Positions 33,120-50,112 of a stretch of DNA of 64,000 bases are shown here, one piece after another. Source of the stretch: Flavivirga spongiicola (GTDB lineage Bacteria; Bacteroidota; Bacteroidia; Flavobacteriales; Flavobacteriaceae); NCBI RefSeq assembly GCF_030540825.1, contig NZ_JAUOEO010000001.1, positions 2,949,001 through 3,013,000 of the forward strand. The letters run 5' to 3'. Under the pieces are notes generated by a model. It did no database searches. It was not told where the DNA came from and saw only the letters and a program-made list of their open reading frames with translations. Within the stretch, counting starts at the first letter, position 1. Every line of letters starts with the position of its first letter. A program made the translations under genes and the position numbers.

Positions 33120-33148
33120 TTCGCTAGTTCATTAATGTATAAATATTG

Positions 33149-33255
33149 TTATCCAGAAAGGTAGAGGGAATAGACCCTGTGAAACCTTGGCAACCCTTTA
33201 ACTTTAAAGAAGGTGCTAAATTCTACTAATATTCAATAATATTAGAAAGATAACG
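33149..33255 (+). ncRNA. SAM-I (S-box) riboswitch
   Basis: Conserved aptamer parts are visible in order: TATCCAGAAAGG, TAGAGGGAATAGACCCT, TGAAACCTTGGCAACC, then AAGGTGCTAAATTCTAC and a closing GAAAGATAAC. Base pairs GGG/CCC around GAATAGA and the AAGGTGC junction match the SAM-I class. It sits upstream of the split metH gene, so high S-adenosylmethionine should lower expression of the methionine operon. A short GAAAAGT/ACTTTTC stem follows at 33255-33277 and may be part of the expression platform, though without a strong T-run. Confidence 0.92.
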
Positions 33256-33339
33256 AAAAGTGTTTCTTTTACTTTTCTTGATGACATATAGATAAAACGA
33301 ATATTTGAAAATCAAACATTCGTCAAAAATAATATCAAA

Positions 33340-45759: not shown

Positions 45760-45863
45760 AATTAAAATTATTTATTCAAAAATAATAATTATATAATGCA
45801 ATAGAAGTTTTGTTATATAATCTTTAAAATTTTTAAAAAATTCAAAAAAAACTAATACTACAA

Positions 45864-45895
45864 TTTTGATTTCTTAAAATATTATTTACTTTAGC
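45864..45895 (+). promoter_or_regulatory. Promoter of the aromatic amino acid leader and operon
   Basis: TTTTG at 45864-45868 and TACTTTAG at 45888-45895 with a 19-nt spacer fit the Bacteroidetes consensus. Transcription should start near 45900-45903, so the leader-peptide ATG at 45905 would be at the very 5-prime end of the RNA. Confidence 0.65.
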
Positions 45896-45904
45896 ACTGT
45901 AATT

Positions 45905-45985
45905 ATGACAACAGTATATTATACATATTTTAACAACTGGTTTTATTTCTTTTTTAGCAAAAGGAACGAGGCGTTGTATGTATAA
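45905..45985 (+). CDS. Phe/Tyr-rich leader peptide of the aromatic operon
   Basis: A 26-codon frame beginning MTTVYYTYF. Ten of the thirteen residues 5-17 are aromatic: Tyr5, 6, 8 and 14, Phe9, 13, 15, 16, 17 and Trp12. Tyr25 lies near the end. It is followed 24 nt later by a terminator hairpin and then by pheA. The layout is that of pheL-type leader peptides: ribosomes stalled on Phe/Tyr codons when charged tRNA is scarce would favour antitermination. No homologue was recognised; the call rests on composition and position. Confidence 0.8.
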   Translation: MTTVYYTYFNNWFYFFFSKRNEALYV

Positions 45986-46040
45986 TTTATAACTATAAAT
46001 TTTAAATATAAGTCTCGATGAAAATCGGGACTTTTTTTTG
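45967..46040 (+). promoter_or_regulatory. Transcription attenuator of the phenylalanine/tyrosine operon
   Basis: Terminator: AAGTCTCGAT (46010-46019), loop GAAA, ATCGGGACTT (46024-46033) and a T-run to 46039, with one G-U pair. Candidate antiterminator: CGAGGC (45967-45972, inside the leader frame after the aromatic codons) pairs with GTCTCG (46012-46017) of the terminator stem. A ribosome at the leader stop would cover 45967-45972 and allow termination; a ribosome stalled on earlier aromatic codons would leave it free to block the terminator. The alternative pairing is read by eye. Confidence 0.72.
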
Positions 46041-46075
46041 TTCAACAATGAAGATTTCGGTCTGATTAATAAAAA

Positions 46076-46909
46076 TTGAATTTGATTAAAACGGTAGCTA
46101 TACAAGGAGTAAAAGGATCATTTCATCATATTGTGTCACAACAATTTTTTGATAAGCCAGTTGATGCCATTGAATGTTTAACATTCGATAGGGTCGTTGA
46201 TTCTTTAATTACTAAAGAATGCGATGCTGCTATTATGGCCTTAGAAAATTCTATAGTAGGATCTATTATTCCTAATTATGCTTTAATTGATAAATATGGC
46301 TTACACATTGTTGGAGAGCATTATATAGATGTTCAGCACAATTTAATGGCATGGCCAGATCAACGTATAGAAGACATAGAAGAAGTGTATTCGCATCCCA
46401 TGGCATTGTTGCAGTGCAAAGAGTTTTTTAAACAATATCCTCACATTAAATTAGTGGAAGATAAGGATACAGCAGAGGTGGCCCAACGGATACATAAAAA
46501 TAAGCTTAAAGGGGTAGGTGCTATTGCAAGTACTTTGGCTGCCGATATATTTGAGTTAGATATTCTGGCACCAAGTATTCAAACTATAAAACACAACGAA
46601 ACGCGTTTTGTTATAATAAAGCGAACAAATTCTGAAGTACCCGAAAATGAAATTAGCAAAGCTTCGGTTAAGTTTGAAAGCGACCATAAACGAGGCAGTT
46701 TAGCAGCCATTCTTAATGTGATGAGTGATTGTAAATTGAATTTAACTAAAATTCAATCATTACCAATAGTTGAAACGCCTTGGAAATATGCTTTTTTTGT
46801 TGATGTTACTTTTGAAAAATACATGGATTTTAAAAAATCAAAATCTATAATTGATATTATGGGAGAAGGCCTTAAAGTGCTGGGTGAATATAAAAATGCT
46901 AAATTATGA
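46076..46909 (+). CDS. pheA: Prephenate dehydratase
   Basis: 277 residues, monofunctional. It turns prephenate into phenylpyruvate. Seen: VAIQGVKGSFHHIVSQQFF, ALENSIVGSI, HPMALLQCKEF, and NETRFVIIKR in the catalytic region. The C-terminal ACT domain starts about residue 195 and has GSLAAILNVMSDCKLNLTKIQSLP for Phe feedback. There is no ATG; the start must be TTG at 46076 or 46082, since the upstream ATG at 46048 is out of use because of a stop. It lies 36 nt after the attenuator. Confidence 0.95.
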   Translation: MNLIKTVAIQGVKGSFHHIVSQQFFDKPVDAIECLTFDRVVDSLITKECDAAIMALENSIVGSIIPNYALIDKYGLHIVGEHYIDVQHNLMAWPDQRIEDIEEVYSHPMALLQCKEFFKQYPHIKLVEDKDTAEVAQRIHKNKLKGVGAIASTLAADIFELDILAPSIQTIKHNETRFVIIKRTNSEVPENEISKASVKFESDHKRGSLAAILNVMSDCKLNLTKIQSLPIVETPWKYAFFVDVTFEKYMDFKKSKSIIDIMGEGLKVLGEYKNAKL

Positions 46910-48051
46910 TTGAAGCTGCGAATAGATTACAAACGGTGGAAGAATACTACTTTTCAAAAAAATTAAGAGAGGTGAATTTTCTTATAACCAGCGGTAAACC
47001 TATCATTAATTTGGGTATTGGTAGTCCGGATTTACAGCCGCCACAAAGAGTTGTAGAGGCCATAAAAAAAGGATTGTTAGCACCTAACGCACATAAGTAT
47101 CAAAGTTATCAAGGGCTACCGGAGTTAAGAGAGGCCATAGCGGGGTTTTACAAAGAACATTTTTCGGTTTCTTTGAGTGCTTCTACGGAGGTTTTACCAC
47201 TTATGGGAAGTAAAGAAGGTATTATGCATATTTCGATGGCATATTTAAATGAAGGTGATGCCGTGTTGATTCCAAATCCTGGTTATCCGACGTATCAATC
47301 TGTTACTAAATTAGTAGGTGCTAAACCTGTTTTTTACGAATTAGATGCAGCAAATGATTGGTTGCCGGATTTTGAAGCTTTAGAGCAATTAGATTTAAGC
47401 AAAGTGAAACTGATGTGGGTAAACTATCCACATATGCCAACAGGAGCTCAACCAAACACTTATTTATTTGAAGAATTAGTAGCATTTGCTAAGCGTCATG
47501 GAATTTTAATAGTTAACGATAATCCGTATAGTTTTATATTGAATGATGCGCCAAAAAGTATATTAAGTGTTGCCGGAGCAAAAGATGTTTGTTTAGAACT
47601 TAATTCGTTAAGTAAAACCTTTAATATGGCAGGATGGCGTGTAGGAATGGTAGTTGGCGATAGTAAGCATATAAAAAATATTTTAAAGGTGAAGAGTAAT
47701 ATGGATTCGGGCATGTTTTTTGGCATCCAAAAGGGGGCTATTGAAGCTTTAAAGTGTTCAGATATGTGGTTTGTTACCCTTAATAGTGTCTATAAACAAC
47801 GTCGCGATTTAGTTTGGCAATTAGCAGACGCTTTAAATTGTACTTATGATAAAAATGCTGTGGGGCTTTTTGTTTGGGCTAAATTACCAGCCTCTGTAAA
47901 AGCTGAAGCCTATATAGATTCAGTACTTAAAAACAATCACATATTCATTACCCCAGGAACTATTTTTGGAAGTAAAGGTGAAGGATATATTCGATTTTCT
48001 TTATGTGCATCAAACGAAGTTTTAGAAGAAGCTATAAAAAGAGTAAGATAG
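46906..48051 (+). CDS. PLP-dependent aminotransferase (class I/II), probable aromatic
   Basis: 381 residues, overlapping pheA by 4 nt (ATGA). Seen: NLGIGSPDLQPPQRVVEA, YQSYQGLPELREAIAGFY, PNPGYPTYQS, MWVNYPHMPTGA (NYPHMP in place of the usual NPNNP), and LNSLSKTFNMAGWRVGM with the PLP-binding Lys. Placement between pheA and tyrA suggests it makes phenylalanine and tyrosine from their keto acids, or acts on prephenate. LL-diaminopimelate aminotransferase-like specificity is the alternative by sequence feel. Confidence 0.88.
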   Translation: MIEAANRLQTVEEYYFSKKLREVNFLITSGKPIINLGIGSPDLQPPQRVVEAIKKGLLAPNAHKYQSYQGLPELREAIAGFYKEHFSVSLSASTEVLPLMGSKEGIMHISMAYLNEGDAVLIPNPGYPTYQSVTKLVGAKPVFYELDAANDWLPDFEALEQLDLSKVKLMWVNYPHMPTGAQPNTYLFEELVAFAKRHGILIVNDNPYSFILNDAPKSILSVAGAKDVCLELNSLSKTFNMAGWRVGMVVGDSKHIKNILKVKSNMDSGMFFGIQKGAIEALKCSDMWFVTLNSVYKQRRDLVWQLADALNCTYDKNAVGLFVWAKLPASVKAEAYIDSVLKNNHIFITPGTIFGSKGEGYIRFSLCASNEVLEEAIKRVR

Positions 48052-48121: not shown

Positions 48122-48155
48122 ATTCTCTCTCATTTGGAGAGGGTTAGGGAGAAGA
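48122..48155. repeat. C-rich palindromic repeat (family A), copy 7
   Basis: TCTCTCTCATTTGGAGAGGG followed by TTAGGGAGAAG, ending 2 nt before the tyrA ATG. Its AGGGAGAAG tail probably acts as the ribosome binding site, as for cysN and sulfite reductase. Confidence 0.65.
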
Positions 48156-48157
48156 AA

Positions 48158-49009
48158 ATGAAAAATATTTACATCATAGGAGTTGGGTTAATAGGTGGTA
48201 GCCTTGCTATAGATATTAAACAAAATAATCCTGAAGTAGTTATTCACGGTATTAGTAGAAAGGAAGCCACACTCAATGAAGCTTTGTCACTTGATTTAAT
48301 TGATAAAAAAGCAACCTTAGAGGATATTGATAATGCCGATTTAGTTATTATATCTATCCCCGTGGATGCTACGGTAAAGTTGTTACCAACTATTTTGGAT
48401 AAGATCTCCGATTCGGGATTGGTTGTAGATGCGGGATCTACCAAATTAGATATATGTAAAGTCATTGAAAACCACCCTAAGCGTAGAAATTTTTTAGCAA
48501 TGCACCCTATAGCAGGAACAGAGCATTCAGGTCCTAGTGCAGCCATTAGCGGTTTGTTTAAGGGTAAAACGAATATTGTTTGTGAAGTAGAAAAAACGGC
48601 ATTCAAACTTCAAGAAAAAGCGTTGAAACTTTTTGTAGATATAGGGATGCGGATTCGTTACATGAACCCGGAAGCGCACGATAAACACATTGCGTATATG
48701 TCGCATTTATCACATATAAGTTCATTTATGTTAGGAAAAACGGTGATAGAAAAGGAAAAAAATGAACGTGATATTTTTGATATGGCAGGCAGTGGGTTTG
48801 CATCCACAGTCCGTCTGGCAAAGAGCTCCCCAGAGATGTGGACACCTATTTTTAAACAAAATAAAGAGAATGTCATTGAGACTTTAGAAGAGTACATCAA
48901 TAATCTGAAGAAGTTTAAAGAACTTATGGAAAAAGATGACTTTGAAGAAGTTTACAACGAAATGAAAAACACGAATCATATAAAACAAATTTTAAACGGA
49001 ATAGCTTAG
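48158..49009 (+). CDS. tyrA: Prephenate dehydrogenase
   Basis: 283 residues from ATG 48158; the TTG at 48134 lies in a repeat and is rejected. It oxidises prephenate to 4-hydroxyphenylpyruvate for tyrosine. The Rossmann motif IIGVGLIGGSLAIDIK is at the start, then VVDAGSTKLDI, FLAMHPIAGTEHSGPSAA and the helical dimerisation domain with SHLSHISSF. No ACT domain is present. It is the third gene of the aromatic operon. Confidence 0.95.
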   Translation: MKNIYIIGVGLIGGSLAIDIKQNNPEVVIHGISRKEATLNEALSLDLIDKKATLEDIDNADLVIISIPVDATVKLLPTILDKISDSGLVVDAGSTKLDICKVIENHPKRRNFLAMHPIAGTEHSGPSAAISGLFKGKTNIVCEVEKTAFKLQEKALKLFVDIGMRIRYMNPEAHDKHIAYMSHLSHISSFMLGKTVIEKEKNERDIFDMAGSGFASTVRLAKSSPEMWTPIFKQNKENVIETLEEYINNLKKFKELMEKDDFEEVYNEMKNTNHIKQILNGIA

Positions 49010-49029: not shown

Positions 49030-50112
49030 ATGGAGAATAAAAAAGAAATGAAAAACTGGTTGGATGCATTGAATTTAAATCATCCTTTGGTTATTGCAGG
49101 ACCTTGCAGTGCTGAAACAGAAGAGCAAGTATTAAAAATAGCTCATGAGTTAAAAGATACAGACGTTAACTATTTTAGAGCTGGTATTTGGAAACCAAGA
49201 ACAAGACCGGGAATGTTTGAAGGTGTTGGTGCATTGGGTTTAAAGTGGCTACAAAAGGTGAAAGCAGAAACAGGAATGAAAATCTGTACAGAAGTAGCAA
49301 ATGCGGCTCATGTAAAATTAGCCTTAGAGCATGATGTAGATTTATTATGGATAGGCGCACGTTCTACAGTGAGTCCATTCATTATGCAAGAAATTGCAGA
49401 TGCTTTACAAGGAACAGATAAACCTGTATTGGTGAAAAATCCGGTAAATCCAGATTTGTCTTTATGGTTAGGTGGTATTGAAAGAATATATAAAGCAGGC
49501 GTTAAAAATATAGGCGCTATTCATAGAGGGTTTTCAACATATCAAAAAACCAAATATAGAAACATTCCAGAATGGCAATTAGCTATTGAGTTTCAAAATA
49601 AGTTTCCAGATATCCCTTTAATTAATGATCCATCTCATATAACGGGTAATCGCGATATGATTTTTGATGTGTCTCAAGCTGCATTAGATTTAAATTTTGA
49701 TGGGCTAATGATTGAAACTCATTATGATCCTGAAAATGCTTGGAGTGATGCTGCCCAACAAGTAACGCCTAGTACTTTAGTGCAAATTATGAAAGATCTT
49801 AAAATTAGAAAAGAGACGAATGCTGAAGCAGAATATAACAGTGCCCTAAATAATTTAAGAGCGCAAATTGACGTTGTAGATAATCAAATTATCACTTTGT
49901 TAGGAAAACGTATGGAAGCTGCAGATGGTATTGGATCTCTTAAAAAGGAGAAGAATGTAGCCGTATTACAATCTAAACGTTGGAATGAGATTTTAGGAAA
50001 AATGGTTTTAGAAGGAGAAGAACACGGATTGAGTGAGGAGTTTATTCTAAGAATGTTTAAAGCGATTCACCAGGAATCTATTAATCATCAAGAGAAGATT
50101 ATTAATGGTTAA
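49030..50112 (+). CDS. Bifunctional DAHP synthase / chorismate mutase
   Basis: 360 residues. The N-terminal part (about 1-260) is a type I-beta DAHP synthase (KDSA/AroG-like: VIAGPCSAETEEQ, RAGIWKPRTRPGMFEG, LWIGARSTVSPF, NDPSHITGNRD). The C-terminal about 90 residues are an AroQ chorismate mutase (NLRAQIDVVDNQIITLLGKRM, EAADGIGSLKKEKNV). It thus covers the first step of the shikimate pathway and the branch to prephenate, fused in one chain, and completes an operon devoted to Phe and Tyr. Confidence 0.95.
   Translation: MENKKEMKNWLDALNLNHPLVIAGPCSAETEEQVLKIAHELKDTDVNYFRAGIWKPRTRPGMFEGVGALGLKWLQKVKAETGMKICTEVANAAHVKLALEHDVDLLWIGARSTVSPFIMQEIADALQGTDKPVLVKNPVNPDLSLWLGGIERIYKAGVKNIGAIHRGFSTYQKTKYRNIPEWQLAIEFQNKFPDIPLINDPSHITGNRDMIFDVSQAALDLNFDGLMIETHYDPENAWSDAAQQVTPSTLVQIMKDLKIRKETNAEAEYNSALNNLRAQIDVVDNQIITLLGKRMEAADGIGSLKKEKNVAVLQSKRWNEILGKMVLEGEEHGLSEEFILRMFKAIHQESINHQEKIING

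Follow-up and report, generated by a model that had tools for sequence, protein, structure and literature searches.

What controls the operon that begins with pheA in Flavivirga spongiicola? A 64,000-nucleotide stretch of this genome (the window) carries, directly ahead of pheA, a short frame rich in Phe and Tyr codons followed by a hairpin and a T tract, and a preliminary description of the same DNA proposed that leader-peptide attenuation governs the genes downstream. Those genes are the ones that it had named, in the order pheA, aminotransferase, tyrA and DAHP synthase/chorismate mutase (Table 1). Of the best 80 loci among 273 confirmed ones, 79 have this order and the last is truncated at a contig end. 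By PheA, the closest named relatives are other Flavivirga species, with 90-93% identity, and comparison with relatives suggests that pheA starts at a TTG at 46082. The proposal is supported computationally by what can be observed directly, namely the anatomy of the sequence, its conservation, its coding and pairing signatures, including covariation, and its geometry. On the basis of these signatures and of folding models, the pheA element is very probably a classical ribosome-mediated transcription attenuator that responds to Phe and Tyr, and possibly to Trp.

Table 1. Positions of the leader, switch and operon features in the window.
Feature	Position	Strand	Details
Predicted -33 promoter element (TTG)	45866..45868	+	18 nt ahead of the -7 box
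Predicted -7 box TACTTTAG	45887..45894	+	Bacteroidetes-type; one mismatch to TAnnTTTG
Leader peptide ORF MTTVYYTYFNNWFYFFFSKRNEALYV	45905..45985	+	ATG 45905; 26 codons; TAA stop 45983-45985 included
Control codons 5-17 (Y Y T Y F N N W F Y F F F)	45917..45955	+	Read from the sequence
Segment 1	45918..45928	+	Able to pair with 45976-45986 (predicted protecting hairpin 1:2); MFE fold
Segment 2, antiterminator 5' arm	45967..45979	+	CGAGGC core; in the tail of the leader ORF; folding and pairing tests
Segment 3, antiterminator 3' arm	46006..46017	+	Overlaps the terminator 5' arm; folding
Segments 3:4, intrinsic terminator hairpin	46010..46033	+	-13.0 kcal/mol, z -4.8
T tract after the terminator	46034-46039	+	Terminator scan
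pheA, prephenate dehydratase	46076..46909	+	ACT match below the Pfam cut-off
Class I/II aminotransferase	46906..48051	+	Homology
tyrA, prephenate dehydrogenase	48134..49009	+	TTG start as listed; in-frame ATG at 48158
Bifunctional DAHP synthase / chorismate mutase	49030..50112	+	Homology

The mechanism that we infer, from transcript start through coupling and stalling to derepression, would operate as follows. Transcription would begin about 6 nt before the leader ATG, with a ribosome trailing RNA polymerase. When charged tRNA-Phe or tRNA-Tyr (perhaps also tRNA-Trp) is scarce, the ribosome would stall within codons 5-17, its leading edge stopping just short of segment 2; the free segment 2 would then pair with segment 3, no terminator would form and the four aromatic genes would be transcribed. 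When the charged tRNAs are ample, the ribosome would reach the stop codon and mask segment 2, leaving segment 3 to pair with segment 4, and transcription would end at about 46034-46039. If no ribosome is present, hairpin 1:2 would sequester segment 2, and termination would again be expected.

The first element of this scheme is the leader peptide. As the preliminary description had it, the frame has 26 codons, with ten aromatic residues among codons 5-17; these are codons 5, 6, 8, 9 and 12-17, comprising five Phe, four Tyr and one Trp. On both strands of the 64-kb window, two ATG-initiated ORFs of 8-60 amino acids reach 8 or more aromatics within 13 codons; of these two, only the leader ORF has a terminator-like hairpin (at least 8 pairs, at least 4 of them G-C) within 110 nt of its stop. 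Over 104 distinct control runs, aromatic codons account for a fraction of 0.80 of the reading frame, versus 0.18 and 0.30 in the other two frames. Base differences between 97 nearest-neighbour pairs of control runs are distributed 23, 68 and 98 over codon positions 1, 2 and 3, and the codon changes comprise 82 synonymous, 48 aromatic-to-aromatic, 24 other-to-other and 13 aromatic-to-other substitutions. Because the aromatics are specific to one frame, the differences are biased by codon position and the codon changes are of this kind, poly-U alone is insufficient to account for the Phe codons, and the coding signature indicates that the leader ORF is translated. Beyond the control run, the corresponding differences are 52, 54 and 72, pointing to a change in the nature of the constraint; the slight excess at the third position implies that the constraint on the tail is not purely one on RNA. 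In 7 of 136 clade-1 tails, three of which are nearly identical, a stop codon occurs no more than two codons past the run, and the downstream AACGAGRC (segment 2) is still kept. The tail also contains a Tyr codon, codon 25 (45977-45979), which lies within the antiterminator arm. A ribosome halted at this codon would mask segment 2 and promote termination; the codon is retained in many relatives (as LYV, in some as LCV), perhaps owing to the RNA pairing at this position.

The second element is a set of competing RNA structures. The rho-independent terminator that had been placed behind the aromatic frame is present, as is the pairing proposed for it, the leader's CGAGGC (45967-45972) being complementary to GTCTCG (46012-46017) in the terminator 5' arm. 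The antiterminator that this pairing would nucleate (45967-46017) has a predicted free energy of -14.8 kcal/mol (z -3.8), and the entire leader RNA folds into hairpin 1:2 plus the terminator at -32.2 kcal/mol (z -4.4), better than all 200 shuffled versions. The earlier suggestion of mutually exclusive structures is thus supported, and the predicted third one, the protecting hairpin, would complete a 1:2 / 2:3 / 3:4 scheme. A generic terminator scan by itself gives no more than chance between 45000 and 51000 (3 found, 2.8 expected); what counts against chance is the combination of leader and terminator and its conservation.

Pairing in relatives was assessed first on an alignment (A1) of 70 of 72 chosen non-redundant sequences, two (L056 and L073) having been dropped because their starts were wrongly called. 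The terminator has 98.4% of its cells paired and five two-sided pairs, a number that none of 500 shuffles reached. For the antiterminator, 70.1% of cells are paired, more than in any version with the partners slid, and for hairpin 1:2 the value is 73.8%, versus 43-60% when slid. Both structures exceed shuffles in cells paired and in covariation score; their two-sided pairs in A1 do not, numbering 13 versus 11.9 for the antiterminator (171 of 500 shuffles), where the second clade is misaligned, and 15 versus 15.5 for hairpin 1:2 (387 of 500), which in these models is the weakest of the three structures. Since A1 shifts the tail of the second clade by one base, so that its antiterminator counts probably understate the pairing, tests that need no alignment were preferred. 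Over 123 non-redundant pairs, duplexes between segments 2 and 3 of the same locus average -10.49, versus -9.32 ± 0.12 when partners are permuted. The third 2:3 pair is A-U in 141, G-U in 7 and G-C in 20 of 168 loci, and the segment-3 core occurs as GTCTCG, GTCCCG, GTCCTG, GTTCCG and ATCCTG, and segments 2 and 4 mostly change along with it. Within the family, much of the 2:3 covariation amounts to one clade-shared change from A-U to G-C through G-U, and the counts and permutations take loci as independent, ignoring relatedness. Taken as a whole, the pairing patterns support an antiterminator that shares a strand with the terminator and is conserved by covariation.

The geometry of leader and hairpins bears on how stalling could be read. 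Segment 2 begins 11 nt beyond the last aromatic codon in the window; the same distance is found in 144 of 168 loci and 10 nt in 18 others (162 of 168 together), the remaining six spacings being 8, 9, 13, 13, 28 and 28 nt, of which both 28-nt values come from an overlapping TTG frame, not the true leader, called at L073 and at its near-copy L117. By E. coli toeprint values, a ribosome whose A site holds that codon would cover about as much downstream RNA. A ribosome is described as covering up to 12 nt beyond a stop codon in the available text of one study (PMC4833913). With an 11-nt footprint assumed and segment 4 as yet unmade, the modeled probability of the 2:3 pairing is about 0.95 when the ribosome stalls anywhere from codon 3 to codon 17, and it falls to about 0 for any stall beyond codon 17. 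Averaging over the helix places the boundary between codons 17 and 18 at any assumed footprint from 10 to 12 nt; at 9, 13 and 14 nt it becomes blurred or shifts by one codon. If the footprint resembles that of E. coli and segment 4 does not enter the equilibrium, stalling at the control codons would free segment 2, and a ribosome at the stop would cover it. Equilibrium stability was considered as the decider of the switch and ruled out: for the full RNA at equilibrium, the terminator is favoured at every ribosome position tried, with P(3:4) of 0.78 or more, and antitermination must therefore be kinetic.

Which amino acids does such a switch read? Each of the 70 non-redundant leaders has at least three Phe and at least two Tyr codons, in line with the proposal in the preliminary description that mixed codons make one switch for both end products; the single Trp codon had gone unmentioned there. 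The switch may read all three aromatics, judging from the codon content, and a Trp signal would suit an operon that makes the pathway entry enzyme. Alternatively, attenuation may respond to Phe and Tyr only, the lone Trp codon being structural or incidental, a sub-question within attenuation rather than an exclusive alternative, and one on which we find the chances evenly balanced. Trp codons are absent from 15 of the 70 non-redundant leaders and from 18 of 26 order and class leaders (8 of 26 have one), and trpE carries its own candidate three-Trp leader in the same genome, all of which would fit a Phe/Tyr switch; against it, 55 of the 70 leaders have exactly one Trp codon and none has two, and the TGG falls within the stall window that frees segment 2. 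The trpE candidate also narrows the earlier claim that the element controls the whole aromatic operon: a four-gene Phe/Tyr operon does follow the leader, but trpE would have a leader of its own.

Conservation across the Flavobacteriaceae was examined in 500 nt upstream of pheA. A PheA match was found in 268 of 299 family genomes, and 170 upstream regions were sampled: 80 were the best 80 of 273 confirmed loci, 30 were the window's own locus (L001) and the next best (L082-L110), whose species overlap with the 80, and 60 were hand-picked among the matches listed in the family search, so that the 170 are not independent. In 168 of 170, a terminator accompanies a leader in which 13 codons include 7 or more aromatics. 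Under a stricter rule 160 of 170 pass, compared with 0 of 800 dinucleotide shuffles (40 of the 170 regions, 20 shuffles each). Of the two misses, one (L080) lies at a contig end and the other (L129, genome G013) has its element outside the 500 nt. Relatives with the operon and no aromatic frame or terminator, which would have spoken against attenuation, were thus not found in the family sample, and the comparison of upstream regions that the preliminary description had recommended shows aromatic codons kept along with the two-sided changes in the terminator. In the window's own genome, covariance model R1 has a sole strong match, the pheA element (7.4e-17; next 0.07). Secondary R1 matches away from pheA were inspected by eye in ten stretches and set aside: nine resembled the usual terminators close to gene ends, and the tenth (L206) proved to be the pheA element that L129 had seemed to lack, located about 640 nt before pheA, with about 500 nt of additional DNA separating the terminator from the gene.

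Strong conservation of the tail and terminator RNA, and a leader RNA that folds better than all its shuffles, would also be expected of a ribosome-independent RNA sensor, such as an unrecognised riboswitch or a T-box-like element whose ligand is an aromatic amino acid or uncharged tRNA, the U-rich frame being incidental. We consider this very improbable, as the codon signature is frame-specific, with changes that are mostly synonymous and aromatic-to-aromatic, and peptides across clades keep Phe and Tyr but not the order of residues; moreover, no riboswitch or T-box Rfam match was obtained at 45850-46090, even at E<=10, and A1 has no obvious conserved domain beyond the three switch helices.

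A ribosome-mediated attenuator also implies a promoter ahead of the leader. A generic sigma-70 scan gave nothing special (22 found, 26.9 expected). In 58 of 70 non-redundant relatives, the motif TAC[A/T]TTAG is present in the 60 nt that precede the ATG, versus 1 of 70 in a control stretch, and in relatives with this motif a TTG 18 nt before the box is by far the commonest spacing (42 TTG occurrences, next 11). In Flavobacterium psychrophilum the -7 box sits at -12 to -5, according to the available portion of a transcriptome study (PMC9723704). Carrying this placement over, a transcript start near 45899 and a 5' UTR of about 6 nt are predicted. From box-to-ATG distances, the predicted 5' UTR in relatives is about 5-19 nt, one outlier aside, suggesting that the common trait is a short rather than a strictly leaderless 5' UTR; a near-leaderless RNA is a prediction for the window. 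Counting against a 6-nt UTR is the rarity of 5' UTRs shorter than 10 nt in Bacteroides thetaiotaomicron, about 3.7% in the accessible part of the source (PMC7366714). That the hairpin is instead a constitutive terminator or processing site, with pheA transcribed from another promoter after 46040 and the small ORF a relic, is most unlikely, for although about 40 nt separate terminator and pheA in the window, in 69 of 168 relatives (25 of 70 non-redundant) no more than 15 nt lie between the end of the terminator and the start of the pheA match, which leaves little room for a promoter after it, conserved promoter boxes precede the leader (the scan covered the stretch before the ATG), and segments 2 and 3 remain able to pair even where their sequences have changed greatly.

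How far does the attenuator extend beyond the family? From 99 genomes of the order with a match, 20 regions were hand-chosen, 6 from the window's own family and 14 from other families. Twelve of the 20 pass the strict rule (6 of 6 from the own family and 6 of 14 from the others), and two more regions, from the same family as each other, have a weaker leader (5 of 13 aromatics). Leader plus terminator was not found in families f12 (0 of 1), f5 (0 of 4) and f16 (0 of 1) of this sample. In the class as a whole, a PheA match was obtained in just 43 of 159 genomes; 20 of the 38 matches from other orders were sampled, and 10 of these 20 pass the strict rule. Of the rest, two have a weaker leader, seven are without both features together, and in one (L225) the leader is strong (10 of 13) but no terminator was detected. 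Shuffles gave leader plus terminator in 0 of 400 cases for each of the two samples. Although stems outside the family differ considerably, segment 2 still fits the segment 3 of its own locus: over 26 order and class loci, 6 of them from the window's own family, the helix score is 19.79 for matched partners versus 13.47 ± 0.63 for permuted ones (0 of 10000 as high). Individually, L184, L223 and L227 are not better than shuffles, and L176 and L219 are marginal. Outside the family, the same search for relatives that lack the leader thus gives a divided answer, with the element present in 6 of 14 regions from other families and 10 of 20 from other orders and several relatives without it, suggesting a patchy presence. 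A wider reading, plausible although we lean slightly against it, is that an aromatic attenuator is ancient in Bacteroidia and predates the diversification of the class, and that its Flavobacteriaceae version integrates Phe, Tyr and Trp on an almost leaderless RNA, the 10-11 nt spacing recording the leading edge of the ribosome. If so, that spacing would imply tight transcription-translation coupling in the phylum.

Leader-like sequences also precede other amino-acid genes of the same genome, at three loci beyond the window. The trpE locus (L229) has a terminator and a candidate leader, MNTILNNAWWWNFRNLRS, in which three Trp codons follow one another; here TCGTGAA is complementary to TTCACGA in the loop region of the terminator. 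At hisG (L231), the candidate leader MNFIQFHHHFHICSQAN has four His in five codons and a terminator, with TCTCAAGCG able to pair with CGTTTGAGA of the terminator. An Ile/Val-rich leader-like ORF, MKKQILNIVSIIVIVIISQR, followed by a terminator, lies about 350-470 nt before the ilvD match (L232) and is a possible fourth attenuator on the evidence of its sequence. Classical attenuation requires a ribosome close behind RNA polymerase. The conserved pheA attenuator and the candidate trpE, hisG and ilvD leaders would make coupling in Bacteroidia testable with a natural reporter.

Part of this was known. In the available text of the 2021 F. psychrophilum transcriptome study, a structured 5' element is reported before pheA and in other Flavobacteriaceae genera, and, separately, clues are given for leader-peptide attenuation before amino-acid biosynthesis operons (PMC9723704). 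That element precedes the same gene in the same family and is probably the one described here; the text seen gives no peptide, pairing partner or covariation for it. The statement in the preliminary description that attenuation is rarely documented in Flavobacteria must be tempered to this extent, as the pheA element and clues to attenuation had already been flagged. What is new here is the conservation, the covariation, the geometry and the mixed codons, what was known being a pheA 5' element in one species; no new principle is involved. Searches of an open-access library, judged by title and abstract, yielded no description of this leader peptide. A 2004 comparative study by Vitreschak and colleagues reportedly mentions attenuators in Bacteroidetes/Chlorobi. 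A 2010 paper, in the part available, states that before their own finding in Firmicutes its authors were aware of no leader-peptide system beyond the Proteobacteria and Actinobacteria, apart from the atypical ermC leader (PMC2965389). No Rfam leader family reaches threshold for the pheA leader (Trp_leader, RF00513, scores 17.2 bits versus the 41 required), and the element represents an RNA family absent from Rfam 15. Elsewhere in the window, a SAM riboswitch aptamer (RF00162) at 33146-33256 (+), with 90.1 bits, is the only Rfam match at gathering level. The pheA attenuator is a candidate regulator of the aromatic pathway in these bacteria, and it seems to be an instance of a single leader responding to two or three related amino acids.

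The closest known counterpart is pheL of E. coli, a Phe-rich leader peptide and terminator with mutually exclusive hairpins before pheA. The Flavivirga element shares with it the Phe-rich leader peptide, the terminator, the mutually exclusive hairpins and the prephenate dehydratase gene downstream. Unlike pheL, it mixes in Tyr and usually one Trp, its operon also holds tyrA, the aminotransferase and DAHP synthase/chorismate mutase, and its predicted 5' UTR is very short. Mixed leaders that read several end products are known in thrL and ilvL; the likeness lies in the several end products per leader and the difference in their nature, threonine and branched-chain as against aromatic amino acids. 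In the text available of one account, E. coli pheA is under attenuation, and the trp and his attenuators of E. coli and Salmonella have a defined last codon whose stall antiterminates (PMC1183508). With the latter, on the same account, the Flavivirga element would have in common the stalling at a block of control codons and the competition of an antiterminator II:III with a terminator III:IV (PMC1183508), whereas the trp and his attenuators read one amino acid each and the pheA leader here mixes at least two. With the switch recurring in many relatives, and with corresponding changes in its stems, a classic form of control best known from E. coli looks old and general here.
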